From: Alentia gelatinosa
Taxonomy: Eukaryota; Annelida; Polychaeta; Phyllodocida; Polynoidae
Reading direction: 5' to 3'
Assembly (NCBI GenBank): GCA_950022655.1
Contig: OX465591.1
Coordinates: 48,131,048 to 48,195,047 of the forward strand
Length of the DNA stretch: 64,000 bases
Of this stretch, positions 42,270 through 63,138 are shown one piece after another. The notes beneath the pieces are model-generated. The model was not told the DNA's origin. It saw nothing but the letters and a program-made list of their open reading frames with translations, and did no database searches. How positions within the stretch are numbered: position 1 is the first letter of the stretch; every line of letters starts with the position of its first letter. The translations under genes were made by a program, and so were the position numbers.

Positions 42270-42353
42270 CTCAGAGTCTGAATGGATGTGTTCACCAACA
42301 GGGCCTTTCCAAGTTTAGTCCAACCAATGTCAGATATATTAGTGTAACCCAGG
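42270..42353 (-). CDS. NLR exon 14: LRR repeat 7 (84 nt; unit 1), last recognised exon
   Basis: The acceptor CTTTAG precedes 42353 and a consensus donor (GTAAGT) follows 42270. It encodes LGYTNISDIGWTKLGKALL followed by VNTSIQTL. The good donor means the gene continues downstream, but I found no further LRR exon or terminal exon between 39 and 42.2 kb. Confidence 0.88.
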
Positions 42354-45300
42354 CTAAAGGAAAAGGACACATAGACAACCAATATCAACTTCAGATTTCA
42401 ACAACTGTGAACATCTTTTCCTCACCACCTTCTTAAATATAATATTTCATAAACTGGCGGGGGCTGGCCAGGGTTGGCCAGGGGCGGCGGGGGTTGGCCG
42501 GGGTTGACCAGGAGCAGCGGGGGTTGGCGGGGGTTGGCGGGGGTTGGTGGGGGTTGGCGGGGGTTGGCGGGGGTTGGCGGGGGTTGGCGGGGGTTGGTGG
42601 GGGTTGGCCGGTGGCAGCCAGGGGCGGCCTCAGGGGCCAGGCGGTGGCCACGGGCGGCTGCTGGGCGGGTGTGACTAGTACCTCTCCAACTATAAGCATT
42701 ATGACACATCAGAGGGGGTGGCAAGGGGTGGCAGGGGGGGTGGCGGGTACTGCAACCTCAACCAACACCCACGAATGCGGGGGCGGCGGGGGGGTCCCAA
42801 TCCTTTTTTTTTTATCATGCATACGCCCGCGTATCCATGTATCACAGAGGATATTTCCTCTTGCATATGCCTGGTGTGAAATACAGCCAAAAGGATAGAG
42901 TTTTTGATCGCCTCATATGCTGGCATGAGATATGGGTGTATACATATGAAAACAAGTCTATATTCAGCCAATACATGCACTTACGCGATGGCGTATATAG
43001 GAATAAAGTGGTTAGTTTCATGCAGTGTAATTGATCATGCTTGCTGATTCATAATTTTTCTTTTCCTGTTACTTCTAATGGAAGTTAAACACACTGAAAA
43101 TGGCATTTATGGAATCAAACAGTCATTTCATTTGAATGTGTAGTATTATATCCGTTTTCCAGCTGAATTGTAAAATCTGACTTAAGGAGAGCACTTACTT
43201 CAAAGTTTGAATGGATGAGTTCCGAAGAAGGGCATTTGCAAGTTCACCACAGCCAGCATCAGATATCACACTTCCACTCAGGCTGAATAAAATTAACAGA
43301 TGGAAAATTATTCCAATTATTGAAATTCCACATCTATTTTTTCTGGAAAGGTGGCAATATTCTTATAAAAGGCCAAGCAGCCATATGTGGGATTTAGAAA
43401 GTACCTATTTTTGTACTTTGACTTGGTGTACAAGGATTCTCATAATTTATGCTCTAAAGAAGATACAGATTTGCAAAAGGTGCAATATGAAACCTCAGAT
43501 TATGGGCTTTACTGCTAAACTCAGTTTCTATGTATACGTTAATCCCCACGCCCCCTGTGGTGAACTCTAATTACCACCGCACAACACATGTTCAACAGAC
43601 ACTAAATGACCAACATATTTCTGAGGGGTTAGAAAATGACGCTGTTCCATCTACGTCAGATATTCATTTGCTACTTGTTTATTAGGTGTAGGATAAAGTC
43701 ACTTACTAAACTGATTCAGATGCATTTGTTCATACTTAATTGCCAGTAATCAGTTTAAAATATACATCATAAAAAACATAATAGAGGCAAACCACAAGAA
43801 GTGTATCTTCTCTCAACTAGGATATGATGTTTTGATGGTCATCTGTAACATCGTTCCACTAATATTTGTTAAGAGTCTGCATTCTTATATTCAATGTTAA
43901 TTTTAAAGTAGATGAGATACCTTAACGATAAAAGGAAAATAACATCAAGGATATAGAGTAGGTAGTGTCAGTTCTTTTGTCTTTGTATTTTGATCGCCTG
44001 TGTACATCTTGAGGGTTGATTATACTGTCGTAATAGTACTTACTCCAGATCTTGAATGGAAGAATTCACCTGCAGGGCCTTTCCAAGTTCACCCAAACCA
44101 ACGTCAGTTATCTCTGTCCAAGACAGGCTGAACAGAAAAGGACAAGAGAACAAGTATCTTTAGAATGAATTTTCAACAATTATGGACATCCCATCAAATG
44201 TGAATATTCTCCCAAATATTCTTTCATGAACTCAGGTCTTCTGAAAAACCTTTCGATCAATTCCTGCTCATTTCTCACACTACAACCATTAACATCAACT
44301 GCCATCACTAAACCACACCATCACAAGGGCAATCTGTACTGATGATAATTGATATGATACTCAGAGCAGTTGTTTGGAGATGTTCTCTATGAGATATGCC
44401 ACCCCATGATTCAGGGTGCTGGAACTGGTATCATGTAGTTCTGAAAGAAATTGTTTGTCATTGAAGATACCAGAAGAGGACCCAGTTGATGTCTATGGTA
44501 GGCCCATGCCCTACACAGCATGTCCTGGAAGAATCCTGGGTCATATTGATTTCTGTTCTTATGAACACCCTGGATGTTCATAAAGAGAGCAGGCCCAGCA
44601 ATTCTCCCTGCACTTACTTCTGCCGGCTTTCACATCTTTTCTGTGCCTGTCCATCCTGCTTGATGTAAGTGGCCTAGATGGGGGCACCCACACTTTACTC
44701 TGCCTGAACATTGCCTTGAATGATGAAGGCATAGTCATCACAGTCCACTCAACCAAGTCCTGCAGTAGCCCCGAAGCAGTCATCTGGTTGTACTGTAGGC
44801 TGTTACTCGGATTCACCATGTGCTCCCTGAACCCTTCATCATGTGGAGATCGGGTGGTGGTTTGTTTGTTTCTTTCTCGGTAGAGGATGTGTCGTGTCTG
44901 CCCCTGGCTGTGAGTAACAGGGCCGAATCCATTCACGCAGGTGCTACAGGGTCGCCTATTGTTACGTAACCTGACTGTACACATAGTCAGGGTTGTAGCT
45001 AGGCCAGGAGATCACTCTTTGTGCTTCTTTTGAGAGGAGCATACCTGGGTTCTCACTGACTCTTTTTCGATAGTGGTCTCAGGGTTATTCAACTTAGGTT
45101 TCACGATCATAGTAACTGACCTAACCCAGAGACCGCTGCAATCTTTAACCAGTGTCCACTTGTGTTACAGAAAATCATGGTATTACTTATACTATAATTT
45201 ACAATTGTGAATCAACTTTATTTGTAATGATATTACTAATGGAGATTATCATCTATAAGACATATAAATATTTCAGGTAAACAACAACACCTATGTCTTA

Positions 45301-48300
45301 ATTCCAGAAATAGATAACATAAGTGGTTGTGGTTCAAATTCTAAGAGTTCTTTTGTAACATGGTTTTACTGATCTTTTTTCATGGAATCCTCTTTCTACA
45401 CAGTTACCCCTTCAAGGACGACTGCCTATGCTCAGGTAATTTCCTTATTATAGATGAGACTATTTGCTATAATGTGCTGCTAGGAGAAAATTTTATTTTT
45501 GTTTATTCCCACCAGTTCTGCAAAACAGTGGGGTTTGTACTGAGTATTACAGATATCATTGTATAATGTCAAAATTCGATCAAAATCTGATGACCATTTC
45601 TTTAAATAGTTTGGCCTCAGAGCTGTGATGTCTGAAGGCATCATGAATCAATAATGCAGTAAGCCTGGAAGCATTATGCATCTTCAAAGGGTTAAAGTAG
45701 GTCAAATACATTGAAGGTAACCAAAGAAAAATGTCAGTTATTTTGCATTTGTACTTTAATATTCTGTATATTGATGGAAGGTAGAAGTAATAATACTTAC
45801 CTGAGAGTCTGAATGGATGTGTTCACCAACAGGGCCTTTCCAAGTTTAGTCCAACCAATGTCAGATATATCAGTGTAACCCAGGCTAAAGGAAAAGGACA
45901 CATAGACAACCAATATCAACTTCAGATTTCAACAACTGTGAACATCTTTTCCTCACCACCATCTTAAATATAATATTTCATGAATTCTCGTCGTCTTCTG
46001 ATGAAATAGTAAACCATCTTATTCCCTCCCTTACTTATTATGCTACAATAAACATCAACTATTCTTCTAGAAATATGGTGTGGAGACGTGGCGTTGGCAA
46101 GCGACTACTGAGCAAGTGACCGGGTTTTCGAATCGGTGCCGCGTCGGCGGCCGCGGACCCGCGAAAATACCTTATAAAACCGTTCTGATTGGTTCATCAG
46201 TAAACAAAATCAGTGTCCTTCCTCCTTATTGGTCTTGGACATGTCTCATTATGTATGAGAGCGTCCTGTGCCAATTAAAACTTACCTTGCAGGTGAGCTT
46301 GGAGGTAAATCCATGTTGGCAGTGTCCCAGTTGGGGAGTGTGCTGCCATCTGGTGTGGGATTTTGGGACTGGTCTCCTGCCACTCTGGGGCAGGGGCCTG
46401 TTTCATAAATAAGGCTTTTTGTAGGAAAGCTATTGGGGAGTGCTTTTAGTTTGTTTTCCGGGCTTCCCTTCCCTCAGTAGTTTTGATTATGAAAATCTCA
46501 TCAGGCTCAGGGCCAAGGCCCCCCCGTGGAGTTTTTATTTAGTGGGTATTTCCGTTTATTTGTGCGGTCACTGCTGGTAATCTGGTTAGGGTGCTGAGAG
46601 TAATTTTAATTATATAAAAAATGTTTTATCCACCCGTTTTTACGTAGTGAACAAAAATTTCTTCTAGAACTGTCTTTTTTGACACAGTGGTATGCCCATC
46701 TATCCCTCGAGGGGTTTGTATGGGAGTTGGTTCAGATAAACATCAACTGTCATCATTGGAGAATAATTGTCAAATTGATCTGTAATTATCCGCGACGCCC
46801 TCTACCGGACTCTTAAGATATCAATCCGGCTGACATCACTATCCAGCCTCACTCGGGCGGCGCATGTATTTGAAACAAGAACAGTAATTTACCACCACCC
46901 GCCCCACATCTAGGGCTAGACTTTCTCTAATTGTATCTCACATTACCTCAACTATTGACTTTGATATTATGTATCAATTTACTCTCAAACTCTCTTTGGA
47001 GTTTTAGCTCAGAGCTAATAAATTCTTGTCTCCAATTTCAGCTTCGCGTGAGTTAATTAGAGCACAGCCTCACATAACTCAGAGTACCAAAGTACTGGTT
47101 ATATCTTCATTTTCTCTGTGTCCTTTCATTTTTGTTATACATGTAGCAGTCACTGGTTTTCATACCTAGACCAATATGATTGTAATGATAATATTCAACT
47201 GCTGAGTGCTACCCTGAGGATGTTCTTACCAGACCCATAGGTCGGTTTGTAACAAATGTAAATCAGCTAGGCCACTAACCCTATTCACACAAGACAAAGA
47301 CAGGAGAATTCAATAAAACAGAGTTGCAACACTATGCAGGTTCGACTGAACTGCCCAACAATAGGACATGTCTTCTAGGGAAAAAGAAACAAACCCCACT
47401 CAACACCCTCACCCTCTACCCTAGTACCCCTCCTAGTTCTTACTAAGGGGGTAACAATGCAGCCATTCAGCTGCTGGGAGACACCACTCTCCTAGCAGAT
47501 ATTCTACACTCTACTTCCTGCGGCCGCTTGTATCTCTGCACCGACCTGCCTGTTTGGGACAGAATCTGTCCCATCAGCCAGTTTATCAAATATCCTAAAT
47601 TTGTCATGGTTTGGGCAGTATTTGTATTCTACTTGTATATAGAGATACACATATTTTTATGGTTAATGATTTACATTCATTTTTGTTATTTGTTATTTCA
47701 AACCAGACACAGTCTCTGGGATTAATTTGTTCAGTGGAAAGCACCAATCAACCTTGGATTCATATTTTAAAGTGGTTTAAAGCTGAAAAAGAATCAGCTT
47801 TAATGTCTGTATAGCTCATTTAACAATTCCCATATTTTACAACTCATAATATATGAGTTCTTTGAGTTTCAAAACTTTTGACAGTTGCCTTGTTTTGAAT
47901 CTGAAATTTTAGCTGGTTCCCCTGTCCTTATTTAGATACCAGGGAACCAGCATCGGGTTGAGGCAGAGATTAACAAGCGCTAGTGCCGCGAAAGATCTGG
48001 GAGGAGAGTGGGGTGACACCAGAAGATTGAACCTGTTGAGTGGACCTCGGTCTTATTTCTTGCCTCTAGATGTTTACATGAACACTGATACAATATTTGC
48101 CATTAATCATCCAAGTCATGTTATATCAAAAACCCAATCTCATATTACCATTTTTTATACAAAAAGTGCAATAGGTTGTTGTTTAAAAAAATAAATGTAA
48201 TAAACCTATCATTCTTTTCTTTTAAGATTTAGTTTAGTCAATAGTTCTTACTATTAAATCACCATTGTTCTGTGTGGTTCCAGGAGCGGCGGGGGTTGGC

Positions 48301-51300
48301 GGGGGTTGGCGGGGGTTGGCCGGGGTTGGCCGGGGTTGGCCGGGGTTGGCCGGGGTTGGCCGGGGTTGGCCGGGGTTGGCCGGGATTGGCCGGGATTGGC
48401 CGGGATTGGCCGGGGTTGGCCGGGATTGGCCGGGATTGGCCGGGATTGGGCGGGGTTATTATTGAAATTCCACATCTATTTTTTCTGGAAAGGTGGCAAT
48501 ATTCTTATAAAAGGCCAAGCAGCCATATGTGGGATTTAGAAAGTACCTATTTTTGTATTTTGACTTGGTGTACAAGGATTCTCATAATTTATGCTCTAAA
48601 GAAGATACAGATTTGCAAAAGGTACAATATGAAACCTCAGATTATGGGGTCTACTGCTAAACTCAGTTTCTATGTATAAGTTAATCCCCACACCCCCTGT
48701 GGTGAACTCTAATTACCACCGCACAACACATGTTCAACAGACACTAAATGACCAACATATTTCTGAGGGGTTAGAAAACAACGCTGTTCTATCTACGTCA
48801 GATATTCATTTGCTTCTTGTTTATTAGGTGTAGGATAAAGTCACTTACTAAACTGATTCAGATGTATTTGTTCATACTTAATTGCCAGTAATCAGTTTAA
48901 AATATATATCATAAAAAACATAATAGAGGCAAACCACAAGAAGTGTATCTTCTCTCAACTAGGATATGATGTTTTGATGGTCATCTGTAACATCGTTCCA
49001 CTAATATTTGTTAAGAGTCTGCATTCTTGTATTCAATGTTAATTTTAAAGTAGATGAGATACCTTAACTGAAATAGAGTAGGTAGTGCCAGTTCTTTTGT
49101 ATTTATATTTTGATCGCCTGTGTACATCTTGAGAGTAGATTATACTGTCGTAATAGTACTTACTCCAGATCTTGAATGGAAGAATTCACCTGCAGGGCCT
49201 TTCCAAGTTCACCCAAACCAACGTCAGTTATCTTTGTCCCAGACAGGCTGAACAGAAAAGGACAAGAGAACAAGTATCTTTAGAATGAATTTTCAACAAT
49301 TATGGACATCCCATCAAATGTGTATATTCTCCCAAATATTCTTTCATGAACTCATGTCTTCTGAAAAACCCTTCAATCAATTCCTGCTCATTTTTCACAC
49401 TACAACCATTAACATCAACTGCCATCACTAAACCACACCATCACAAGGGCAATCTGTACTGATGATAATTGATATGATACTCAGAGCAGTTGTTTGGAGA
49501 TGTTCTCTATGAGATATGCCACCCCATAGTTCAGGGTTCTGGAACTGGTATCATGTAGTTCTGAAAGGAATTGTTTGTCATTGAAGATACCAGAAAAGGA
49601 CCCAGTTGATGTCTATTGTAAGCCCATGCCCTACACAGCATGTCCTGGAAGAATCCTGGGTCATATTGATTTCTGTTCTTATGAACACCCTGGATGTTCA
49701 TAAAGAGAGCAGGCCCAGCAATTCTCCCTGCACTTTCCTCTGCCGGCTTTCACATCTTTTCTGTGCCTGTCCATCCTGCTTGATGTAAGTGGCCTAGATG
49801 GGGGCACCCACACTTTACTCTGCCTGAACATTGCCTTGAATGATGAAGGCATAGTCATCACAGTCCACTCAACCAAGTCCTGCAGTAGCCCCGAAGCAGT
49901 CATCTGGTTGTACTGTAGGCTGATACTCGGATTCACCATGTGCTCCCTGAACCCTTCATCATGTGGAGATCGAGAGGTGGTTTGTTTGTTTGTTTCTCGG
50001 TAGAGGATATGTCGTATCTGCCCCTGGCTGTGAGTAACAGGGCCGAACCCATTCACGCAGGTGCTACAGGGTCGTCTATCGTTACGTAACCTGACTGTAC
50101 ACATAGTCAGGGCCCTGTTTTTTAGTCACGATATCGCAAGTATGCGATCCCCTAAGATCGGATCAAGATTCTACGGCATTTTCTACTACACAAGATGGCG
50201 GGTGTGCTATAGACTGTGTCGTAGGTTGAATCAAACGATCTTAGCAGAGTTAAGACAAGTATAGAACTGTCTTAGGTTCTATAAAACGTCACTGTTAATT
50301 TCCTGCGCTTCCCATAAGAATTAAGCAATGAAATTTTAACATGAATAAGGTATACATATATCCTATAATCGTACAAAATATCAAGAAAATTTGACTCACC
50401 GTTATGAAGATATTGGTGTTTAAATTTGAAACATCGGGCTATCGATCGGATATCGTACAAGCACTCTCCTAGCAGATCTTTCGCGGTAAAGCGCGCGGAA
50501 TCTCTGCTGGGAGATTGAAGTAAGCGCAGAGTGAGGGAAGAGCTACACTGGCCACCAGAGCAGCGTTTGCTATGACGAAATTCAAACGCCGAAATCTTCA
50601 TAACGGTGCCGCCGATTTTCTTCATATTTAGTACGATTATAGGTTATATGTATACCTTACTCGTGTTCAAATTTCATCGCTTAATTCTGACGGGAACTGA
50701 AGTTCCGTGTTTGGTACGACATGTCCAGAGTGGTCTTAGAGATACAACACTTATGGCCACTATTTCCCGCTCCATTGGCCACCGAGTGTCGTGACTATAA
50801 CACACCTTTTAGCTCCCTAAGTGTTGTATCTTCACTAAGTGTCGCACCCACTCTATGATCGTATCTCTCTAGCACACTGATGGCAGATACGTGTCGTAAG
50901 TTACAAATGTTGTGACTGAAAAACAGGGCCTGTCAGGGTTGTAGCTAGGCCAGGAGATCACTCGTTGTGCTTCTTTTGAGAGGAGCATACCTGGGTTCTC
51001 ACTGAGTGCAGATTTTTCCTAACTCTTTTGGTAGTGGGGTCAGGGTTATTTAACTTAGGTTTGACGATCATAGTAACTGACCTAACCCAGAGACCGCTGC
51101 AATCTTTAACCAGTGGCCACTGTGCCTAGACCACCTAGCCTTGCACAACAAGGCACTCTCAGGACCAAGCGTCATCCCAGACTTATATAGAACTGCATCG
51201 GGAATCGAATTAATAGACAATACTCCATATGTTTGGATGGGCCGCAATAGCCATCGAGGTGAAGCATTGTGATGATTATGGAACAACCAAACGAGTAGAG

Positions 51301-54300
51301 TATTGTTAATTTTACGTTAAATATCATCACAACTTCAGAATAATCAGAATATACTTAGCAGATCCATATGATGTCATCTCAAATTCTCTACTCTATAGAT
51401 AGCCGTGGCGTAGTATTGTCACTTTACGGGGGTGATCGTTAGGTATTTTTTATAATGTTATTCCTATGGGTAAACTTGTACCAGGGGTGAGATAATGACC
51501 TTTACACTTCAGAGTGTCAGGGTGATGGATGCTCAGCAGGCGGCTAGCACTGGGTTCACCGAACCGGACGAAACAGCTCATGGCTCATGGCTAACCCTCA
51601 GGGACTATCCAGCATTTCTCGTAATTATTTATCATGTCCTCATTCTGTACACTCATTGCTACTCTTGAAGTAAAGCCCTTTTTCCACTGTGCGACTGAGG
51701 GGGCTTGCGATCTGGTACCTCCAGTCTGAGACTGTAGGTAACGGCTTGGCGTGTCGCTTGTACCTTGGATCGGAAGGTAACATCGATTCTGTGTGGAGAC
51801 AACCCCCCTTGTGACTGGAGCGCTTGCGAGCCTAGCTATAGAGGTACCCCCAGTCTCAGACTGGGCATGCCAAATATTAAACATCGTACCGGTACGTCTC
51901 AGACTGGAGGGGAACTTGCTGTCTCCACTGTGCGTTTTGCCGTGTTCCGATCCTGAAGGTACGCCCAGTCTGAGACTGGGCATACCTATGTACCTTGGAT
52001 CAAATGTGGAGACGGGGCTTTAGTTATGAACATTGAAGGTGATAAGAAAATGTCAATGGAATAAAAAAGATAGCATCTGATACTTTGCATTAGTACTTTT
52101 AATTACTGTTTATGGCTGGAGAGTAAAATGAAATGTAATTATAATACTCACTTCAAAGCGTAAATGGATGAGTTAACTAGAAGGGCCCTGCCAAGCTCAG
52201 TCCAACCAGCCTCAGGAATGTTAGTCCAATTCAGGCTGAATGAAAAAGGATGCACACACAGCTATTACTATAGTAAGATTTCAACACATCCACTTCTGAG
52301 TGAAAGAGCATTGTATTAAGTTCAAAGCTAATGACAGTAGTTAAGTATCACAGGTTGATGAAACATTTAAAGTCTATAATTAATTTACCTGGAAGTTATG
52401 AGAAATTCTGTTAGGTACATACCTCAATCTTTTAATGGTGTCGTTGGAGATAAGAAAGTTTGCCAACAGTCCTGCAGACATTGCATCAAGGCTTACAATG
52501 CGCAAACTGTAAATATAAGAAAGTAGCTTTCAAATGAAATGAAAACTTGAATGTGCACAATCTATTTTAGAAAAATTTTCAAATTAAAGATATTTTCTTG
52601 TATATTACTCTGGTTTTCCATTCATCGCCTGTGATTCCCCCCTCCCATTTGTTCTCACCATACACAAAGCAGTACATCATATACTTATGCACAAACCTAG
52701 AATAAACGCACAGTGACCCTAAGGGTATAGTCATAGTAGTAATACTGCTTTATCTCACCCCTGGTACAAGTTTACCCATAGGAATAACATTAGAAAGAAA
52801 TACTCAACGATCACCCCCGTAAAGTGACAATACTACGCCATGGCCATGGCGTAGTGAATTTGAGATGACATCATATAGATTTGCTAAGTCTATTCTAATC
52901 ATTGTGAAATTTTGATGATATTTAATGTCATAAAAAGGGGTGAGATAAATACAGAACTGCACTCAAATTGTAAAATAAACAATACTCCACTCGTTTGAAT
53001 GGGCCGTAATCATCACTCGGCTTCGCGTCGATGACGATTGCGGCTCATCCAAACTCATGGAGTATTGTCTATTTATATGATTCTCGATGCAGTTCTATAT
53101 AAATACTACACTGTGTAGCTTTATATAGGTTCCATATTGAAAATAAGTGTGTGAAATTAAAACCGGCAATATTAAGTGACAGGAGAATGTCATTTTAAAT
53201 CCATGTAATGTTAGATATTTTTAATATCAGTATCCTTTGAGATGGGGGGTGTCCATTTTTGTCGACAGAGTTACTTTTTGAATGTAGCCAAAACTTTCTT
53301 TGTAATTCTCACATTTTGTTGGCTGATTGGTCATTTCCTTTTGCCTCTTTACTGGCATAAAAATCACTTAATTCCATTGACAGTGGCATGAAAAAATGCC
53401 ATGTTAAATCTGTGAAGAAATTCATTGGGAATAAGATAAAGCAAGATCAGATCGAGCTCAGTTGATAAAATATGACGTCACCCACCATGAATAGGTTGAA
53501 TAAAATGGTATTGAAACTTACCACAATTCATAAAGGTTTTTGGCATTCTTCATGACAAACACCAATCCATTCACATCAATGGCAGTCAGAGGTGTACCAT
53601 TTATTTTCAATTTGTCAGACTTCACCAGCTTTTCTGCCATGTGCTGTGCAATCTCCTCACTTTGAGACTCGTAAATCATCTGGATGTTCTGTAGTTGTGT
53701 TTCTCCTAATGTCTCATCTGAGTCCTGTTTCATTGAGAATTGTAATCAGAATGTTACAATGGTGATTAAGATTAAATCAGAACTTCCTGCATAACAGTGT
53801 TTCCATATATGTCAATGTAATTATACCAAGCTCAGTGGCCAAGTGGTAGGGGTGTTCGCCTCGAGCATGGGAGGTCGTGGTCGGGTCGGGTCATACCAAA
53901 AACTTACACAAAAATGGTACCCACTGCCCACCCGCCGTAAGAATGAGGAGTGGGGGTCTAGGGCCCGAGTGGATGAACGGCTATATATGATTTTATATAA
54001 TTGTATAATAATTATGAATCTAAATGAAATATAGAATACCATATATACTTAAAGACTCACCTGTATTTTGTCTTTTACAAACTGTTTCACATCATCTCTA
54101 GCATGCAGGTCTTCTGACTGGGAACAAATAGCAGAAATCAGTCATTGCATCATGGTCTGACACTTGTCAGTTGATTGTCATATATTTCTTTATTGCTTTC
54201 TTGTAACTTTCATGAAAATTTATTTTCTGTACAAACATAAAATAACCACATCATTTCATGCATGATTTGTTGAATATAATTTCATTCGTAGGCCAAATTT

Positions 54301-57300
54301 CAAAGGTAATGGGAAGTGTTTGGGGATAAATGGTATGCGGAAGAACTTCCTAATACAATTGTAGTAGGACAATAGCCTAACAAGTCAGACAATTTATGAT
54401 CTGTATTGTATTCTGTCACTCCTGGACATGTTTGGTTGTATATTCAACAATGTTCTGTCCTGTAAAATTTGAGGGAAGTTGCCTCCACAATGTAAAGATA
54501 TTTACCCAAATCTCTCATGAGTTTGGTTTAGGTTCTGTATTACGAAAGGGCCTTCTCTTTTTACCAATGTTAAAACTGTCCCGTATGTGTATGTATGTCT
54601 TATTCTTTTCCTCCAAAAAAACCAAGCAGCTATGAAATTTGTCATTATGTTGTACACAGATAATTTTCAATTGTATTGAATGTTAATTCCATGTATGTTT
54701 GAAAAATGCCAATAAACTGCTTTTTAAACAAACGAAAAAACTATGTGTCACATTCTACCTATATACAGATCAGTAATCTTGACAATATGGCTCAAATAGT
54801 AACCCTTGGTTCCTCATTTTTGAATATCAACTAAAAAAGAAGTTACATTAACCAATTTCTCGATAATTCAGAAAAAGGAACACTGTGAGTAATGATAATT
54901 TTGATGATTACTTTCTTCTCACTAGTAATTCAATTGATAAAATCAGGGTCGACGAGGCTACATTCGCGACTAACAAATTTTTCCGACGGACTGAGACCGT
55001 ACCAACACGCTAACATCTAGCTGAGACTCGGAGACGCATCTGACGGCAGAATTTGATACAATTGATAAAATGAGCCTGTGAAGGTCCATCCCCTAGTGTC
55101 CACTTTACTGACACGAGTACCGGGCCCTATTACTCGAAGAATCTGCACGTTGAATAATCTAGATTTGGGCATGAAGACCCTTTTCTGTACCTCATACAAA
55201 TGTTATCATTTAATAATTCATTCACTCAGACAGTCTGAGCCGTCCATAAGGTCTTCCATAAGTGTTGAATAAAATTGACCCACATCGTCCCTGGGTCTCT
55301 ATGGCATACGGAAAAGGGTCTACATGTCGCATCTTCGATTATTCAACAGGCCCCAGCTGGCTATTATCCAAGCATTAAATGTTCTCTATCGATCCTCTTT
55401 TCAATTGCTTTAATAGTACATGAAAACTACTACTTTTGTCTACTGTGTGAGCCTTGTATTAGTCTGCAGCAGCCACTGGGTGCAATATAATTTCACAAAT
55501 ACCAACTCACCTCACTGTAGCCTGTTGCATGTAGAAAGCTGGAGACCCACTCGTTTTCCCTGTCTAGGGCCAGGCCGATCAGGAACATACTAGCCATGTT
55601 GAATCTCCCACTTTTACTGAGTATCAGGTCCTTGCCACCACTTTTTATGGCATGAGCCATAGCTAAGATTTCTTGTATAGAAAGATGTACAAATTCGCAG
55701 AAGGACTTTTTTCCTATTGAATGTGTGAATAGCTCAGTGTGAAGGAGTCCTGCCTTTTCCATGTCTGCCCCTGCAAAAGTAGAACAATATACACAATGAA
55801 AAGGAAGTCCTTAGTAAAGGGGGGATTCCACCAGACTAGAAGCTTTATCGGAAAGTTTCTGAAGTCCTTGGAATGTATCAAAGAATATCTTATATGGTGA
55901 ATTTTCTCGCACGATAAATCATATTAGCGCCCGAAATTACCAGAAAAAAATGTGCGCTTCCACCACCAGCTATGCTTATACGAAATTTCCCGATTTTCAT
56001 TTCGGCAAGTTTCAGGTACTCGGTGGAATTACGCCTTAAACTGTAAGCATCATTAAAAAGCATGTTTACACCAAGAGCCAGAGGAGGTACTATCTTCTTC
56101 ACTCCCTTCTCACTGGTTTCAATCCCCACAGGCCATAGAGATTTACACAACCACGCATCATGGTAACTATTTGATAATTACATTTTGATAAACAAGGGTA
56201 CACTTTAATTACCTGTCAAAATGATCAATCACTTTTTTGTTAGGATTAGTACTTTTTCTTAATATGTCTTAGAAATGCAATTTATGATACCAATATCCAC
56301 CTGAAAATTACAAATCAAAAGGAAATCACATAAATATAATATAATGTCAGTTGTTTTGTAAGCTAGTTCATGATTACAATTCTAATATGATTTACTTGTG
56401 CTGGTCTTCTGAGAGAGTATGGTCGTCACAAATAACTTACAGTTTTTCAGTGTGACCTTCGCCATGGCCAAATCACGATCATCAAACACAAGCTTAGAGT
56501 TTCCATCGTTGAGTTTTTGGAGACCTGACATGGCCAGCTTCGTGAAAGGGGGTAAGAATTCAAGTAGTCTCATTGCCATAATCCAGGGGCTATCTGACTC
56601 TAACTCCAGTCCTCTTGTTGCTGATTTCTGCCAAGAGAAAATGCCATTACAAGTTACAAGTTCTTGGTTATCTGAATCAGGAACACCTTTCTACTCTGAT
56701 AACAGTAAAAATGGAGTGGTGCTGTGTAAGGGGCTACTAAGACAACAACCATTTCTCAAGGAGCAATAAGCATATGTTTAACATATCCAAGGCAGGAGCA
56801 TCCCCAGCTAGAATTAATTATACCGTCAATACCAATAAAATCACTTTCTCGCTTTGGTATATCCCCTGTATGTTTGTATTAGTGTGACATTGTAGTTTAA
56901 TGTATTGTATTACTGATCATCTGATCTACTCGCATACTAAATTTACTTTGATGATGCATGTTTATTGATAAGGAATGTTGCATACCAATTGCATGTATGC
57001 GCAAACTATGGTTTAACCATGATCTCTGTACAAACATCTCAATACTAGCATTATGTTGTTTTGACACTACTTACTACTGCTATGTATATTATACGGTATG
57101 CTTGTATCCTGATAACTGTATATAACCCCTCTCATTTGAGGATTAGCTAGCCAACGTTGTGCTCACAGCCCATTACATATATGTTGATCGAAGCTTGTAT
57201 ACTGCTGGCTGTAAATGAAAACAGGCACTTGCTGCCTTCTCTGCTGTCAGGATAAATAAAACTGATCTAAAAAAGAAATCTGTTATGCCTGGGATGATCA

Positions 57301-60300
57301 AACTATGGTATAAAGGAGGAACAGAATATGTGGTATGATGTAGATTCTAAGGCATTTATTCAAGGATTGTAGAGTTCATGGTTGAGTAGCACAGGCTGGA
57401 ATGTCTGCCGCGTCATGAGGGATACAGTTCCTTATATATGGAGTCCTGATTAGGTGATGGCTGACCTATTCAGTACTGCTTTGGTAGAGGCTCCTGCATT
57501 GCTGTTGAGTACAGGGGCCTTGCAAAATGCACTTACAACATTTTGACATTAGGGCTAGGTTTATGATTAACATGGCGAACTATACATATATATATCATGT
57601 GGCCTAATGTGTCTCGGAAAATTTTCAAGGTTCAATTTCTTTGGGAGGCTTGTATTTTGGTTTTGTGTACTGCTTCCAATGGAGAGTTAAGCAACTGACT
57701 GGGACATATGCTGTTGTGATACGAAAATATCAATAGACTATAATAAAACAGGCTATTCTTTGGATGTACAATAAGAAAGTCAATTGATTAAATGTCTACT
57801 CACCAGGATAATGTAGGCTGTGAGTTGAGTGAACGTCTTAATATCCAGCTTCACACCTAAGTTTTCCATTTGCAGCACCTTGCACAAGGCAGATGCGTAG
57901 TAGGCGATGGCACATGCAGACCGAATGGTTGGATTGTTTGTCAGGATGTGTTTGACATGTCTCACTTTTCTTTTTGGGACATGTTTCTCAACAAACTCAT
58001 CCACTTTTTCTTCTGTTAGGCCTAAGAGCTTGATAACCCTGTGGGTGTCTAGCTGTGCAAGGCCTGTGAATGGTCTAATAGATAGAAAAAACATGGTTTT
58101 AATTATGAATCTAATATACTTCTGATTAAGAATGATGTAAATACAGATTGTGATATGCTTTGGCTTTGGCTGTATGCCTCTACTGGCATAAATCAAATTC
58201 CATGTCTTGGTATACCACCTAAATCAGTAAATTCTATGGGATTTCTTTTATCAGGGGTAGGATAGAGAAGGTAACATACCTTGAGAACACCATCTTGGTA
58301 GAGTTTGGAAGTACATTTCCACTGAGGATGTTAACGGACCACTCCAAACACGTGGCCTCTTCATCCAAACTGTGGATTTTTCTTGTTTTTATCAGCAGTG
58401 TCTTTAAATCTGGGAGCTCATCTATTCCATCTGTAAAATATATATATATATTTTTATTCATTACTTTATTGCATCTCTCGTAACAACGAGTTTTTCTGAT
58501 ACAATCTTCATACACAAGTACATTTGTGGCGTCCGACGTATTAAAGGCGTTACATAACATTGAAGAAAAGTAAAAGGTAATAAAAGTTTTTAAACAGTCT
58601 GGCATTATAGAAACTGATAATGGTAATGAGATGAAAATTTTGACCAGGGTAACAGAATATCAAGAATTTATACAGTCAGTAATTGCGCATTTAGGCGTAG
58701 TTAGGCGAGGGGGTGGGCAGGTATATCAAGATTCTTTTTGAATTCATCCTGGTTTCCGCTCATTTGACAATCGATGGATAGGGAATTCCACACCTTTGCG
58801 CCTCTAATGTAGGGGCTTTTCATAATATGGTTACTTTTCGTTGGGGGAATTTTATAATTGATTTTCGAGGCCTGTCTAGTTTGTCGAGTCTTTATCTCTA
58901 GCCAATCAGTGTTATACCGATTCTTGTACATAATTATGGCTATTTGCTTATGTCTTGGTTTCCACAGAGGAGCGATTCCCATTTTTTCGTATAAGCTTGC
59001 TATGGTTGTCCCACGAAGTGGTAAATGAAGGGCCATTCTCATCCCCCGGTTATGCAATTTCTCTATCACATCGAGATCGCATTTCCTAAAGCTCTCATAC
59101 AGGTAGCCACAGTATTCAATTATGGGGAGTATGCTCGAATTGTAAACTAATACAGCTGCCTGTGTGGTCAAATTTTTTCGTAACTTAGCAAACTTAAATA
59201 ATTTTGAACCTAGATTATGTATAACATTTTTTGAATGGGCAATCCAGTTTAAGCTAGAGTCCACTTCTACCCCTAGGTATCGGTAGTGTTCACAGGAGGA
59301 CAACGGTTGGTTATTCATAGTTAGACGAAGGGGTGGGCAGGTTTTTATTTTCGGTGGGCTACCAAACCACATGGCTTTAGTTTTCTTTACATTTATGGTT
59401 AAGCAATTAAGATTACACTAGTTAGACAACCGATCATGGTCTTCCTGCATTTTTCTTGTGGCAACTATCGGGTCCTTATGGGCAATGTAGATGACAAGGT
59501 CGTCCGCATATTGTAAATATTTAGAATGAGAAAAGTTGCTCCCGAGGTCATTTATGAAAAGAATAAACAGTAGAGGGCCTAGGACAGACCCTTGCGGGAC
59601 CCCAAATTTAATATGGGCTATTTCGGAGAATAAGTCGTTGATAAATACTTTTTGAGTTCTTCTTGAGAGGTAGCTTTCTGTCCAGTTGACCAGATTCGTA
59701 GGGAGTTTTATTTGGTGTTTTAGTTTTGAGATTAAAAGTTTATGGTGGATGCTGTCAAAGGCTTTCCGGTAATCAACAAAAACAGAGAGGACTATTAAGT
59801 TTTGGTTTCGGTATTCATATAGGTCATTTAGAAAAGTAAAAATTGATGGGGGGATGGGGATTACGGTTGCAGACTGCCACGAGTTAGGGAAGGTTTCTGT
59901 ATTTAGCGATCTTTGCAATATATCGGTAAATTTGAGGGCTAAGGTTTTCAGGGATTCAACTAGGATAGCGCTTTGTAGGTGGTCTAATCCACTCGATTTA
60001 TTCTTATCCATCTCATTTAGGAGGTCTGTCACTAAGTCGGTGTCGATATATAAGTTTAGAGTTTCCACCAATGCGGAGTCCAGCCCAGGAGGCTCCATAT
60101 CTATCTCGATAAGCCAGTTGGCAAGGCTTGGGGAGTCCTGTTCTAGTTTACAGAACAGTTTCTCCCCAACACCGGCAAAGAAATCATTTATATAGTTGGG
60201 TATATCTGGGGTGGAGATGCTTGATCCCTTGTCCATTAGTATGCACAATTTCCCGCTATCCTCGGGTGAGATGAGATCTTTTATCACCCCCCAGAATTTT

Positions 60301-63138
60301 TTTTGGTTGCCCTTAGCTTCATTTAGTTTATATTTCCAATAAGCGCTTTTCTCGTTCTTAATCTTGTGCTTTATCTCTCTACTTGTTCGGCATATTTCTG
60401 TCATCACAATGCGGTTGTTACTAGCTTTTAGTTGTCTAACTAGATCGCGACGGTGTCCAATCAGGTTTATTAGGTTGCGACTCATCCAGTTGGGTTTTGA
60501 GTCCTTAAAGGTCATTTTTTTAATTGGGCAGTATTGGTTTAGGTAGTCCGTTATTCTTTTTAGAAGGAGATTCCATTGATCATCCGCAGTCATATCTGCC
60601 CATTCAGGTGGCCACACGGTGGCTTTTAAGTACCCCTCTAACTGCTCATGATTGTAGTCCCTGTAGCTCCTACTGGTGAATGATTGCATTACCTTTTTTC
60701 TCGGTAGTTTTTTTCTTTTGGCTGACACGGGATGGTGGTCACTTATCATATCGTCTAGTACACTAGCTTTGCTTACCACATCCGAATTTGTATAAATGTT
60801 GTCGATCAGGGTTCCACCATTCGCGTTTGGGCGAGTGACATTATTAACCAGATGTCGCTGTCCATTTACTCGTAAAAAGGTTTGAAGAGTTTTGTATACG
60901 TATGAGCTTGTTTTGAGTGCGTCTACGTTAGTATCTCCTATTATCCAGACTTCCCTGTTGTTTAGTTCATCAGACTCTAATACCTTTTCAAGGGCTTCAT
61001 AAAACACTTTAGGTGATTTCGGTGGGGGCTTGTAGCAGGATATCACGCAGAGCCTTTGCAGTTTAGGCTTGTCTACCTTAATTACCAGCAATTCATAATT
61101 TTCATTCGTGACACTGAGACTACTTTTGACACAGTAGGGTGCGAGAGTGTTAGATATATAGCATGCCACCCCTCCCCATTTTGCTGTCTCTCTGTCTAGT
61201 CTGAATAAGGAGTATCCTGGCCACAGCAACATGGAGTTTGTATATCCCTCATGCAGGAGAGTTTCCGACAAACACAGGAAGCTCACATCATCATGGAAGC
61301 AAGAGATTAACTCATCGAGGTTTGCAAACAGGCTCCTGACATTTTGCCCAATTAGTCTAATACAATTTTTCTTTTTGCAATTCATTATAGTATTTTATCA
61401 ATAGGATGATAAGACAGGGCATGAGGATGATTGAACGTGATGAGAAGATGAATGAGAGCGGTCCAGCCACATTCATTATGTGGCCAGACCCGAACTGCCC
61501 AGCCACTATATAAAATATACTTATCAGAACGTATAATCAAAAGTACCGACTAGAATAAAAAAGAATCATGTTTTACAAAACCATCATCTTTCCTGAACTC
61601 GATATATGATTCCTTTTGTATGCAATACAATCAATGCATCTACTAGTTGTGAGATAAATTGTTTTACATCCAGGCACTACCTGCATTGGAAATATATTAA
61701 AAGATTCTGAAGAAGGCAGATATGTACAAGTGACAGTTTTTGCCACCTCCTTGAGAATAAAATGGATAATAAAGATCTGTCTAACTCTCCACTTGACCTA
61801 ATATATGTGGTATATGTGATATATTTGTTCATATGACATTTATCTAAAGAGAACAACCAAATGTCTCACACTCATCGGGATTAGTATAGGACAAAACAAA
61901 AAGATCTTTAACAAATACAGCCTTTTATCCTACCCCTAATATAAAATCCCATAGGCTTAACATTGGGTTTCCGTATGCCACGCTGACTGGCATACGGAGT
62001 TTCATATGCCACTAGTGGCATACAGCATTGTTATCATGTAATATTCCAAAATCGAGGAGATAGGGTAGGATTAAATCAAAACCTGATTCGTTTTAACCTT
62101 GGCCACCGCGTTCAACTCCTGAAGTTTTGGCTCCGGACTTCATTCGGCTTCGCCTCATGAAGTCACTTTGCCAAACTCCAGTCGTGGAATACGGTGGACA
62201 AGATTAAACCTCATCTAATTTACGATAGTATTTTTTGCAATACACTTGCTTTTTATGTGTAGAGGAAAATACCTGCTGTATGTCATCAAATCTTTAGAAC
62301 CTTTAATATATCTTTACAGGTTTGCAGTGTTTTGGAGGCATTTATTCCATGATGTAGAATGGCGTTAAAGCTGAGTGAATGAATTCTTCCTTCCTACTAT
62401 CTTACTGCATAATGGCAGGCTTAACTGGAACAGATCATGTAATTATTACAGACAACAAGTGACCAATTGTAGTATCAGTCTTTTGCTGTATTATGGAAAT
62501 AGATATCTCTTATGCATATATATTTTCGTGTGATACCTTCACCATTTGAAACTCAGGTGCGAGTAAATACTATCAAACCACAGTCTCACCTAGAAAGAAC
62601 ATGATTTTCTCTTGCTGGTTCTGGAGCCACAATCCCAGCTGAGGATGTTCCCCACCGGGACCGTAAAGGCTGTTCTGCAGGAGTAGATCAGAGAGCTTGA
62701 TTCGGTAATCAGTGGACAGAAGATGTCTTAGGTTCAGCATGAATGGACATGTGTATCTTTGTTCCCATTCTCTGTTTGCCCATTTACGGATTAACCATTG
62801 GGAGAGGGTTGTTTTTCCAACCCCTGATCTCCCACGTAGTAGGACAATCTTTTCCTTTTCAGATAGAATATTTTGGTAGCTGATGTTACTTTTTCCAAGT
62901 TTTCTCTGGTAGACGTTAAGTAGTGCATCATCTTGGTTACCGTGGGAATGAGCACCATCATCTTGGCTACCGTGGGAACGAGCACCATCATCTTGGTTAC
63001 CAGGGTCATGTTCCACCAGAAGAAGCTGAATAAATTCTTCTTCCAAATCAATTCTGACATCTCCCTTCATATCCAGAGTATGACCCTTGACTTTAATTGC
63101 ATCACGCAGTTTCTGTGAAAGCCCATCAACAGAGAGGT
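42270..63138 (-). CDS. NLR receptor gene (NACHT domain + LRRs), 14 exons assembled, both ends open
   Basis: Fourteen exons on the minus strand join in frame with GT/AG sites at every junction (62590-63138, 58280-58430, 57804-58074, 56441-56627, 55511-55770, 54061-54117, 53522-53724, 52423-52506, 52152-52235, 49164-49247, 45801-45884, 44044-44127, 43199-43282, 42270-42353), giving 2266 nt or about 755 residues with no stop. The order is P-loop, Walker B, sensor region, winged-helix and helical domains, then LRRs, which is the NLR architecture. Members are cytosolic innate immune sensors that oligomerise after ligand release of the NACHT ATPase. The first exon starts in phase 1 after an acceptor, so an upstream exon (perhaps a DEATH, CARD or DED domain) lies outside the recognised part; the last LRR exon ends on a donor, so more LRRs or a terminal exon follow. 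The introns are full of transposable elements, but the exons look intact. Family assignment is firm; subfamily and ligand are unknown. Confidence 0.9.
42455..42612. repeat. G-rich minisatellite (GGGGTTGGCGG)n in unit 1
   Basis: About fifteen units of GGGGTTGGCG/GGGGTTGGTG, with G runs of four to five. It is immediately followed by a larger dispersed-element copy (to 43027). Both strands of it are frame-open, which produces Gly/Pro-rich spurious ORFs. Confidence 0.93.
42613..43027 (+). mobile_element. Dispersed repeat family F copy in unit 1
   Basis: It follows the G-rich minisatellite and ends AATAAAGTGGTTAGTTTCATGCAGTG at 43002-43027. Blocks CCAACACCCACGA, ATACGCCCG, TGGTGTGAAATACAGCC and GAAAACAAGTCTATATTCAGCC are shared, in order, with 12.24-12.48 kb. 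Absent from unit 2. Confidence 0.7.
43199..43282 (-). CDS. NLR exon 13: LRR repeat 6 (84 nt; unit 1 only)
   Basis: The acceptor ATTCAG precedes 43282 and the donor GTAAGT follows 43199. It encodes LSGSVISDAGCGELANALL followed by RNSSIQTL. It has no counterpart in unit 2, where the flanking intron (from about 48462) is joined directly to a G-rich minisatellite; I searched the 46.0-48.3 kb interval by eye and saw no similar 84-nt exon. The C in GCG and the RNSS variant distinguish it from the other repeats. Confidence 0.86.
44044..44127 (-). CDS. NLR exon 12: LRR repeat 5 (84 nt; unit 1)
   Basis: The acceptor TGTTCAG precedes 44127 and the donor GTAAGT follows 44044. It encodes LSWTEITDVGLGELGKALQ followed by VNSSIQDL. 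It is paralogous with exon 10 by the tandem segmental duplication. Entry and exit phases (one base in, two bases out) are the same as in every other LRR exon, so joining it to exon 11 upstream and exon 13 downstream keeps the frame. Confidence 0.9.
44559..44984 (-). other. 141-codon ORF in the duplicated intron (unit 1), probably not coding
   Basis: It starts MCTVRLRNNRRPCSTC and ends ACSLYEHPGCS. The same frame is open in unit 2 (49679-50104) with about ten changes. The units are so similar that a shared open frame is not evidence of selection. No domain recognised, and it lies in an NLR intron between LRR exons. Confidence 0.25.
45801..45884 (-). CDS. NLR exon 11: LRR repeat 4 (84 nt; unit 2)
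   Basis: The acceptor CTTTAG precedes 45884 and the donor GTAAGT follows 45801. It encodes LGYTDISDIGWTKLGKALL followed by VNTSIQTL. It is the unit-2 copy of exon 14 (42270-42353); the difference I can see in the protein is D for N in the first line (GYTD against GYTN). The flanking introns match unit 1 for several hundred bases on each side. Confidence 0.9.
45991..48282. other. Unit-2-specific 2.25-kb intron sequence
   Basis: Has no counterpart in unit 1. Contains GC-rich sequence at 46080-46170 and CTCCTAGCAGATATTCTACACT at 47491, the segment shared with 4990. No element termini or coding domain recognised, so insertion in unit 2 and deletion in unit 1 are equally possible. Confidence 0.6.
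48283..48456. repeat. G-rich minisatellite (GGGGTTGGCC)n in unit 2
   Basis: About seventeen 10-bp units of GGGGTTGGCC or GGGATTGGCC. It directly abuts the unit-2 intron sequence that in unit 1 lies beyond exon 13, so the missing exon's breakpoint is at this repeat. The unit differs slightly from unit 1 (CC versus CG), showing independent homogenisation. Confidence 0.93.
49164..49247 (-). CDS. NLR exon 10: LRR repeat 3 (84 nt; unit 2)
   Basis: The acceptor TGTTCAG precedes 49247 and the donor GTAAGT follows 49164. It encodes LSGTKITDVGLGELGKALQ followed by VNSSIQDL. It is the unit-2 copy of exon 12 (44044-44127), from which it differs at only a few bases: the first line of the repeat reads LSGTK here and LSWTE there. 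The changes fall at variable, solvent-facing LRR positions while the scaffold is unchanged. Confidence 0.9.
49679..50104 (-). other. 141-codon ORF in the duplicated intron (unit 2), probably not coding
   Basis: Copy of the unit-1 frame at 44559-44984; see there. It ends near the foldback insertion at 50113. Confidence 0.25.
50113..50931. mobile_element. Foldback/TIR element, family A, copy 3, with preserved empty site
   Basis: Ends CCCTGTTTTTTAGTCAC and GTGACTGAAAAACAGGG are inverted repeats; GTCAGGG flanks both sides (50106-50112, 50932-50938). The corresponding site in unit 1 (about 44986-45000) reads straight through ATAGTCAGGGTTGTAG with one copy of the target. Inside, 50310-50400 and 50620-50690 are inverted relative to one another (TAAGGTATACATATATCCTAT against AGGTTATATGTATACCTTA), so it is a foldback element. 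No transposase. Confidence 0.95.
51180..51500 (+). mobile_element. Foldback element family B, copy 1
   Basis: AGAACTGCATCG, CAATACTCCATATGTTTGGATGGGCCG, the pair AGAGTATTG, GATGTCATCTCAAATT and GTAGTATTGTCACTTTACGGGG are shared with 52742-53110, but in the reverse order and orientation. Partly a palindrome at 51190-51320. Confidence 0.75.
51719..51982. repeat. Cluster of CCAGTCTGAGACTGG palindromes
   Basis: CCAGTCTGAGACTG, CCCAGTCTCAGACTGGG, GTCTCAGACTGG and CCCAGTCTGAGACTGGG occur at about 51720, 51847, 51894 and 51963, each next to a GGTAC or TACC sequence (GAGGTACC, GTACCTTGGATC). Probably pieces of a nested short inverted-repeat element. Confidence 0.7.
52152..52235 (-). CDS. NLR exon 9: LRR repeat 2 (84 nt)
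   Basis: The acceptor ATTCAG precedes 52235 and the donor GTGAGT follows 52152. It is 84 nt, in the same phase as its neighbours, and encodes LNWTNIPEAGWTELGRALL followed by VNSSIYAL. The LG-x-AL and NSSI-x-x-L landmarks match the other units, so it belongs to the same tandem array. It lies between two opposite-facing copies of a foldback element (51.18-51.50 and 52.74-53.11 kb) and is outside the duplicated units. Confidence 0.88.
52423..52506 (-). CDS. NLR exon 8: LRR repeat 1 (84 nt)
   Basis: The acceptor ATTTACAG precedes 52506 and the donor GTATGT follows 52423. The exon is 84 nt, entering with one base and leaving with two, and encodes one 28-residue LRR: L-R-I-V-S-L-D-A-x-S-A-GLLANFLISNDTIKRL. 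The L-x-x-L pattern with N-D-T-I-x-x-L at the end is the ribonuclease-inhibitor LRR type seen in NLR proteins. This is the most divergent repeat in the array, lacking the G-W-T-x-LG-x-AL core of the others. Confidence 0.82.
52742..53110 (-). mobile_element. Foldback element family B, copy 2 (opposite orientation)
   Basis: Reverse-complement relation to 51180-51500: CCCCGTAAAGTGACAATACTAC, AATTTGAGATGACATC, CAATACTCCACTCGTTTG and CGATGCAGTTCTATATA. LRR exons 8 and 9 sit between the two copies. Confidence 0.75.
53522..53724 (-). CDS. NLR exon 7: helical segment leading into the LRRs
   Basis: The acceptor AATGAAACAG precedes 53724 and the donor GTAAGT follows 53522; 203 nt, phase 0 to phase 2. 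It reads an acidic helix (DSDETLGETQLQNIQMIYES) and then TAIDVNGLVFVMKNAKNLYEL, where the D-x-x-GL-x-F-x(5)-NL-x-L spacing is that of the first ribonuclease-inhibitor-type LRR. It ends in phase 2, which fixes the phase of all the following 84-nt LRR exons. The upstream intron also contains a tRNA-derived SINE. Confidence 0.82.
53828..53995 (+). mobile_element. tRNA-derived SINE in NLR intron 6
   Basis: The head GCTCAGTGGCCAAGTGGTAG (polymerase III A box, TGGCCAAGTGG) and GGTCGTGGTCGGGTC (B-box-like, GGTCGGGTC for GGTTCGANNCC) have the spacing of a tRNA-like promoter, here resembling tRNA-derived SINE heads with TGTTCGCCTCGAGC between. A body of about 100 bp follows, ending in a TATATA-rich 3' end. 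Family unknown. Confidence 0.7.
54061..54117 (-). CDS. NLR exon 6: short 57-nt helical linker exon
   Basis: The acceptor TTCCCAG precedes 54117 and the donor GTGAGT follows 54061. The exon is exactly 57 nt, phase 0 to phase 0, and encodes 19 residues (SEDLHARDDVKQFVKDKIQ), an amphipathic helix. Both neighbours also present phase 0 at this junction, so including or skipping it keeps the frame. It is too short to show in a simple open-reading-frame scan. It could be an alternatively spliced cassette; that is inference. Confidence 0.72.
55511..55770 (-). CDS. NLR exon 5: winged-helix end and helical domain 2
   Basis: The acceptor TTTTGCAG precedes 55770 and the donor GTGAGT follows 55511; 260 nt, phase 1 to phase 0. 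It reads ADMEKAGLLHTELF, then KKSFCEFVHLSIQEILAMAHA. The F-x-HLSIQE-x-LA core is the most recognisable post-NACHT motif of NLRs (the F-x-H-x-(T/S)-x-QEF-(L/F)-AA stretch at the end of the winged helix). It continues with FNMASMFLIGLALDRE, an NLR helical-domain-2 helix that normally ends with W-V-x-x-F. No frameshift or stop is present. Confidence 0.9.
55771..56440. other. NLR intron 4
   Basis: The 86-codon minus-strand frame at 55890-56150 is not bounded by matching splice phases and shows no NLR motif, so I leave it out of the gene model. Confidence 0.5.
56441..56627 (-). CDS. NLR exon 4: winged-helix domain
   Basis: The acceptor CTCTTGGCAG precedes 56627 and the donor GTAAGT follows 56441; 187 nt, phase 0 to phase 1. 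The reading frame opens KSATRGLELESDSP and passes through LLEFLPPFTKLAMSGLQKL to LVFDDRDLAMAKVTLKN. The pattern L-x(2)-L-x(2)-LA-x(2)-GL followed 10-15 residues later by F-x(2)-DL is the standard winged-helix stretch of NLR proteins. The next exon supplies the second half of this domain. Confidence 0.85.
56628..57803. other. NLR intron 3
   Basis: 1.18 kb without recognised elements. Exon 3 leaves in phase 0 and exon 4 enters in phase 0, so no missing exon is required by phase. Confidence 0.55.
57804..58074 (-). CDS. NLR exon 3: end of NACHT, helical domain 1 and winged-helix start
   Basis: The acceptor TATTAG precedes 58074 and the donor GTGAGT follows 57804; 271 nt, entering with one base to complete AGA and leaving in phase 0. 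The join gives FSR-PFTGLAQL, the S-R-P motif at the end of sensor 1. It then reads DTHRVIKLLGLTEEKVDEFVEKHV, the usual NLR helix (...v.gFs.e...eYv...f), and continues with a cluster of helices (NNPTIRSACAIAYYASALCKVL) matching the family pattern in which the domain lists short peptide segments of low-complexity helices before the winged-helix domain. Conserved family context, no stop, and consensus splice sites support it strongly. Confidence 0.88.
58280..58430 (-). CDS. NLR exon 2: NACHT Walker B and sensor strand
   Basis: The acceptor TATTTTACAG precedes 58430 and the donor GTATGT follows 58280; 151 nt. With the G carried over from exon 1 it opens as D-GIDELPDLKTLL, so the join recreates FFLDGIDELP, the extended Walker B of NACHT ATPases (hydrophobic strand, D-G-x-DE). 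It ends with STKMVFSR, the sensor-1 strand that in this family reads up to the T/S-R-P triplet; the proline comes from the next exon. The precise rebuilding of two family motifs across both introns is the strongest evidence for this gene model. The intron between exons 1 and 2 is 4.16 kb and carries a retrotransposon. Confidence 0.92.
58701..59372 (-). pseudogene. Reverse transcriptase thumb and C-terminal tail, CR1-like
   Basis: This continues the frame of the endonuclease/RT ORF, 15 codons after its stop. It carries YRYLGVEVDSSLNW (RT block 7, the thumb-side YLG motif), SKLFKFAKLRKNL, VYNSSILPIIEYCGY, LHNRGMRMAL, and the terminal SPYIRGAKVWNSLSIDCQM. These are the standard landmarks of the C-terminal region in CR1/Rex-type elements. 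Without the premature stop this would be one protein. Confidence 0.85.
59418..61385 (-). pseudogene. Endonuclease + reverse transcriptase ORF (truncated by stop), CR1-like
   Basis: Residues 1-230 form an AP-endonuclease: GQNVRSL at the start, the catalytic glutamate in CLSETLL (about residue 41), GDTNVDALKTS (about 150; canonical elements read GDFN) and SDHHPVSA (about 218). After a linker with CPIKKMTFKD and WMSRNLINLI comes the RT: DKNKSSGLDHLQSAIL, VDYRKAFDSIHH (motif A aspartate), GVPQGSVLGPLLFILFIND (motif B) and LQYADDLVIYI (motif C, catalytic DD). RT blocks 1-2 (K-G-x-NYRPISLL ... Q-x-GFR) are missing by an in-frame deletion between SATVIPI and SIFTFLND, so a functional enzyme is unlikely. 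The terminating TAG falls just before the thumb, at CLTINVKKTKAMWFG. Confidence 0.88.
61925..62072. mobile_element. Short TIR element bounded by TCCTACCCC and GGGTAGGA
   Basis: ATCCTACCCCTAATATAAAA with CATAGGCTTAACAT on the left, and AGATAGGGTAGGATTAAA on the right. Similar left ends occur near 1055 (CTCCTACCCCTGATATAAAT) and, inverted, at 58240. Inside are repeated TGGCATAC palindromes. Confidence 0.5.
62075..62222. repeat. Foldback element in NLR intron 1, CGGCTTCGCC loop
   Basis: TTTTAACCTTGGCCACCG and GAAGTTTTGGC on the left are reversed at GCCAAACTCCAG and CGGTGGACAAGATTAAA on the right; the loop is CATTCGGCTTCGCCTCATG. It belongs to the class of palindromic elements seen at 32.7 and 53.0 kb. 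Confidence 0.8.
62590..63138 (-). CDS. NLR exon 1: linker and NACHT Walker A (P-loop)
   Basis: The acceptor TTTTCTAG lies just before 63138 and the donor GTGAGA follows 62590; the exon is 549 nt, phase 1 to phase 1. It reads an acidic helix-rich linker, then a degenerate 10-residue tandem repeat (G-x-QDDG-A-x-SHG, three copies at 62927-63003), then KEKIVLLRGRSGVGKTTLSQ, whose GRSGVGKT is the nucleotide-binding P-loop. It continues through WLIRKWA and FMLNLRHL, typical of NACHT strand 2 and the following helix, and ends in KIMFFL. That is the hydrophobic strand of Walker B, cut by the intron immediately before its first aspartate. The open frame continues 3 codons beyond the donor, which explains a slightly longer raw ORF. 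No Met is needed here because the exon opens in phase 1. Confidence 0.9.

Follow-up and report, generated by a model that had tools for sequence, protein, structure and literature searches.

The question raised by this locus is whether fourteen short open frames, dispersed between positions 63138 and 42270 on the minus strand of a 64,000-nucleotide stretch of Alentia gelatinosa DNA (contig OX465591.1, positions 48,131,048 to 48,195,047; hereafter the window), are the exons of a single NLR gene. An initial annotation of this DNA had proposed as much, describing a complete-looking NACHT-LRR core hidden among transposons. The present analysis confirms that the NACHT-LRR core found across these fourteen exons is real, and the locus is best read, with a probability of roughly 85%, as most of an intact animal NLR gene, one that very probably works like other NLRs. 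The gene is of an ordinary kind, a further member of a large known family, and what is new here is that two pairs of its LRR exons, E10/E12 and E11/E14, derive from a tandem duplication.

The exon borders were located from the sequence and then joined, which recovered 14 exons (E1 to E14) with the same outer limits as previously proposed. AG acceptors and GT donors are present at all 14 exons, and the spliced join runs for 754 codons without a stop in one frame, while the other two frames contain 51 and 58 stops; given that density of stops, a frame this long would stay open by chance with a probability of about 3e-25. The donors of 12 of the 14 exons match at least seven of the nine consensus letters, those of E10 and E12 match six, and the acceptors of E7 and E2 are weak, failing to outscore 37% and 22%, respectively, of the AGs found in this region. 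The minus-strand model with consistent phases stands as first described. Introns interrupt the product at residues 183 (phase 1, within Walker B), 233 (phase 2, within the SRP motif), 323, 386, 472, 491 and 559, and the first two of these junctions rebuild the motifs FFL|DGIDELP and FS|RPF, just as the initial annotation had claimed.

The NACHT half of the gene is encoded by seven exons of unequal length. E1 (62590-63138, 549 nt; placed by the exon join and Pfam) carries the linker before NACHT, the Walker A motif GRSGVGKTT and the sequence up to FFL of Walker B, and it contains an in-frame 30-nt tandem repeat (62926-63001, minus strand) which encodes a 10-residue repeat in the linker. E2 (58280-58430, 151 nt; join, alignment and tblastn) supplies the remainder of Walker B, DGIDELP, and extends to VFS of the sensor motif, whereas E3 (57804-58074, 271 nt; join, Pfam and tblastn) continues from RPF of that motif to the end of NACHT and the next helices. 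The first part of the helical and winged-helix region lies in E4 (56441-56627, 187 nt; join and alignment), followed by E5 (55511-55770, 260 nt; join, Pfam, alignment and tblastn), which holds the end of the winged-helix part, including FVHLSIQE, and the start of the HD2-like region. The latter continues in E6 (54061-54117, a 57-nt phase 0-0 exon; join and alignment with the fish NLR P0031) and ends in E7 (53522-53724, 203 nt; join, Pfam and tblastn), the exon with the weak acceptor. The seven exons that follow are all 84 nt long, each in phase 2-2 and each encoding an LRR, in agreement with the phases given before. They comprise the divergent first LRR exon E8 (52423-52506) and E9 (52152-52235), both identified by the join, an 84-nt exon scan and the LRR profile; E10 (49164-49247), E11 (45801-45884), E12 (44044-44127) and E14 (42270-42353), identified by the join and self-comparison; and E13 (43199-43282), identified by the join, the exon scan and the LRR profile.

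The spliced product matches the families expected of an NLR. The Pfam NACHT profile (PF05729) is found at residues 97-266 with an E-value of 4.1e-22 (79.2 bits against a cut-off of 26.7), and LRR_6 (PF13516) at 3.5e-13 (48.9 bits against a cut-off of 23.4), with three stretches passing individually, so that the profile check proposed for this gene is positive for both families. The C-terminal array consists of seven repeats by sequence. GRSGVGKTT at residue 102, FFLDGIDELP at residue 180 and VFSRPF at residue 230 are all intact, and positions invariant in seven aligned sequences include G102, G105, G107, K108, D186, S232 and P234. In addition, FVHLSIQE begins at residue 412, and its F412, H414, Q418 and E419 are likewise invariant in these sequences. 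We take these sites to be Walker A, Walker B, the SRP sensor and the winged-helix histidine motif FxHxxxQE. In the PDB, 70 distinct sequences match at E<=0.001, and among the 60 listed, NLRPs, rabbit NOD2 and ribonuclease inhibitor lead, followed by other LRR proteins.

Independent support for the joins comes from related proteins. Residues 70-560 were compared with a protein collection, scoring being limited to the 7996 candidates with most words in common, hence closer relatives may exist. This gave 45 matches, among which P0029 (E 1.3e-69, 35% identity) and P0030 (E 1.3e-57, 32%) stand out, the third best having an E-value of 3.4e-13. Both are ENA-sourced NLR proteins that share NACHT, an HD2-like region and LRRs with the window gene and fall into one clade with it in a tree. 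P0030 contains 18 LRR_6 stretches and, at the two motifs, has DGVDGIL and SKPF in the same register as the window gene, while P0029 has a weak CARD-like start, a part that the window does not hold. P0029, which had no part in building the gene model, gave 11 tblastn rows against the window at E<=10. Five of these, all with E-values below 1e-3, lie collinearly along the minus strand and correspond to E1, E2, E3, E5 and E7 (63142-62600, 58458-58279, 58076-57804, 55696-55496 and 53691-53533), with ends at or near the exon borders; the remaining six (E >=0.68) fall on two LRR exons and on four chance-level places outside exons. P0030 similarly matches E1, E3 and E5 with E-values no higher than 6.5e-11, E2 at 0.010 and E12 at 0.05 and 0.25, besides two chance-level rows. 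Across the junctions the alignment is gapless, with ILTDGIDELP of P0029 facing FFLDGIDELP and ISRPF facing FSRPF. As tblastn with P0029 or P0030 gave no match to E4 and E6, these two exons are supported by frame, splice sites and alignment, E6 being aligned with the fish protein P0031 as TTQYIKEKIKDG versus VKQFVKDKIQDS. Taken together with the Pfam and PDB matches, the relatives and the gapless motif junctions bear out the NLR architecture that had been recognized from the letters.

Could the model nevertheless be an artefact, fourteen chance frames strung together by a reader in search of motifs? Short open frames are indeed common in this DNA, since the window has 438 AG-84-GT intervals, of which 113 have an open phase-2 frame. 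However, chance would have to produce the NACHT match, five collinear P0029 pieces and the joint open frame at the same time, and the Pfam result, the P0029 and P0030 relatives and the collinear tblastn rows refute this explanation, to which we attach practically no weight. A more serious alternative is that the locus is a recently silenced or truncated NLR copy, with an open core, a lost first exon or 3' end and no working receptor expressed. We consider this unlikely, on the grounds that 754 codons run without a stop, the splice sites of 14 exons are unbroken and the NTPase motifs are intact; on its side are the absence from the window of a start, an N-terminal domain and a 3' end, the LRR profile result described below, and the insertions and rearrangements within the introns. 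The upstream part may simply lie beyond the window end, which is 862 nt from E1. Intact frame, splice sites and NTPase motifs are compatible with an active gene, and the gene is probably functional.

Several observations weigh against reading the locus as an intact NLR gene, and most of them concern its ends. The earlier description of the gene as complete-looking is correct for the NACHT-LRR core and fails for these ends, for E1 begins partway through a codon and E14 runs up to a donor. Neither a start codon nor an N-terminal effector domain (CARD, Death, Pyrin or BIR) was seen in the window, the sequence upstream of E1 lying outside, and residues 1-129 of P0029 have no tblastn match in the window at E<=10. 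The CARD match in P0029 itself has an E-value of 0.026, below the cut-off, in a region of low confidence in the model. At the other end no 3' end was confirmed within the window. A hidden Markov model (HMM) built from the window's own seven repeats (which it therefore matches by construction) was compared with 2278 stop-to-stop frames of at least 18 residues in a search for further LRR or terminal exons; it recovered the seven exons, with E-values of 1.2e-14 or better, and no other frame scored under E 2. The gene may thus be truncated or end in something divergent. Furthermore, the NLRC4_HD2 match (7.3e-6) is below the Pfam cut-off, and the grouping with P0029 and P0030 in the tree depends on long branches. 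A hand-made 84-nt exon scan, the criteria of which were set after the exons had been seen, yielded nine candidates, the seven exons and two others. No FISNA-type family occurs among the 19 families listed at E<=1, a result that again leaves the sequence upstream of E1 outside. By analogy with the single relative P0029, our guess is that the missing N-terminal domain would be CARD-like.

The donor sequences allow a further suggestion as to the protein end. The GTAAGT directly after E14 leads one to expect further exons. The same donor follows E10 to E13 as well, E9 is followed by GTGAGT, and in each case the donor comes after two codon bases, so that reading on into any one of these six introns, if retained, would at once meet a TAA or TGA stop. 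Judging from these letters, intron retention could let the protein end after E14.

How does this gene plan compare with that of other NLRs? According to a study of human genes, most NOD/NLRC genes have one 28-residue LRR per exon, with the border at a fixed place in the beta-strand and with frame-preserving LRR exons (PMC6642158). E8 to E14 resemble this NOD/NLRC class in 7 of 7 cases, with one repeat, 84 nt and phase 2-2 each, which places the LRR half on the published plan. In contrast, the zebrafish NLR-B30.2 genes and NLRC3 are described as carrying the NACHT, winged-helix and superhelical parts in a single large exon (PMC4852459), whereas the window gene distributes NACHT and the helical region after it over E1 to E7. 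In the zebrafish NLR-B30.2 genes, Fisna shares the large exon with NACHT, and NACHT and LRRs are on separate exons, the latter as in the window gene (PMC4852459). No B30.2 family is among the 19 Pfam families listed for the product, the gene ends being outside the data. In the sponge literature, a paper on the NLRX, NLRC and NLRD genes of Dysidea avara defines a bona fide NLR by NACHT plus LRR, with variable LRR number, and the window gene shares this combination; the main text of that paper does not contain the words exon or intron (PMC12909245). P0023, the one match named as a sponge, is 22% identical to the window product. In the literature searched by title and start of abstract, we noticed no report of where introns lie within an invertebrate NACHT, a weak negative because subscription papers are mostly outside such a search. 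A further study reports NLRs from sponges to amphioxus, including molluscs, annelids, brachiopods and cnidarians (PMC11508797), and the presence of an NLR is consequently no pointer to deuterostomes; the deuterostome invertebrate host proposed in the initial annotation is unsupported.

The LRR exons hold the clearest record of the history of the gene. Self-comparison of the window delimits two duplication units, unit 1 with E14, E13 and E12 (41611-45160) and unit 2 with E11 and E10 (45158-51121), the latter including an insertion at about 50113-50931 that is absent from unit 1. The units adjoin at 45158, where the lower boundary of one meets the upper boundary of the other over a few shared letters, as in a tandem duplication. 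Two copy pairs result, pair A consisting of E12/E10 and pair B of E14/E11. Outside the exons, pair A differs at 43 of 1571 positions, and at 10 of 175 in its outer part past the insertion, whereas pair B differs at 5 of 741; with the outer part excluded, the two divergences differ significantly (Fisher p 0.0008). As a single event would give equal divergence, gene conversion over pair B, or two events, are likely. E13 has no counterpart in unit 2, where identity ends about 33 nt before the acceptor, at the start of a 10-nt minisatellite. Minisatellites of nearly equal 10-nt unit occupy 42455-42608 and 48288-48457, each at an edge of a duplicated segment, the one in unit 1 bordering the segment of pair B. 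We read this as loss of the E13 counterpart through a deletion ending in the minisatellite, the alternative being a gain of E13 in unit 1. The insertion in unit 2, which lies in the E9-E10 intron, has terminal inverted repeats (TIRs) and CCCTGAC on both sides, and being confined to this unit it most likely postdates the duplication. The idea that it is in part a 5S-derived element was dropped, since 50100-50950 matched nothing in Rfam at E-values up to 1. An extra exon on the minus strand at 44559-45011 and 49679-50125 was also considered and rejected: the frames are open in both copies (150 and 148 codons) in the orientation of the gene, they match no Pfam family, and with 3 synonymous and 8 non-synonymous changes between them they show no constraint.

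The differences between the duplicated exons are few. Codons 3 (G/W) and 5 (K/E) distinguish E10 from E12, while E11 and E14 are told apart by codon 5 (D/N) and a single silent change, so the three amino-acid changes in both pairs are confined to repeat positions 3 and 5; they are too few for a test of selection, and what is notable is where they lie. With the divergent E8 set aside, variability across E9 to E14 is highest at position 5, with five residues in six repeats, and position 3 has three. Positions 3 and 5 come after the strand's LxL, at sites that are exposed in repeats of the ribonuclease inhibitor type. In pair B, exon and intron divergence are 2/84 and 5/741 (Fisher p 0.15). The array has expanded as entire 84-nt exons were duplicated in tandem together with their introns, and the frame survives such duplication because every LRR exon is in phase 2-2. 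That the array is a cassette system in active turnover, in which duplication, deletion and homogenisation act on blocks of equal-phase 84-nt exons, changes in new copies are confined to exposed positions and frame-neutral skipping yields several receptors per gene, is a speculative extension that we hold to be improbable.

The view that the gene is hidden among transposons proved justified, as the E1-E2 intron contains a long interspersed nuclear element (LINE) at 58701-61394, on the same strand, with an endonuclease-reverse transcriptase (RVT_1) and a stop between its two open reading frames (identified from these frames and Pfam), and the E9-E10 intron contains the TIR-bearing insertion. Elsewhere in the window, two more LINE remnants with RVT_1 lie on the minus strand at 14406-16938, which has 224 relatives at E<=1e-60, and at 27631-28323. 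In a minisatellite at 33979-37623 (plus strand), a 20-21 nt unit recurs about 178 times; its strand asymmetry is extreme, and each of the three plus-strand frames stays open beyond 1200 codons. Two mutually inverted arrays of 11-nt units form an imperfect palindrome of nearly 1 kb at 12648-13617. Overlapping open frames at 29404-31596 (plus strand) have no Pfam match above the cut-off, a C2H2 finger at 0.0036 being below it, and possibly belong to a mobile element. Rfam at gathering scores and ARAGORN found no RNA genes in the whole 64-kb window.

To conclude, if the window gene works like other NLRs, the LRR solenoid would keep the protein closed or read a ligand, the NACHT-winged-helix core would exchange ADP for ATP and assemble into a ring, and an N-terminal death-fold domain, with its coding sequence upstream of the window, would pass the signal on; such sensing, assembly and signalling are extrapolated from the family, whereas exons, frame, motifs and family membership were read directly. 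The locus is an example of an NLR that is easily overlooked, because its NACHT core is divided into small exons and no single frame resembles a receptor. Within one gene, it also presents an LRR array that gains, and perhaps loses, repeats without loss of frame. NLR gene counts made from unspliced frames in animals with long introns could be too low.
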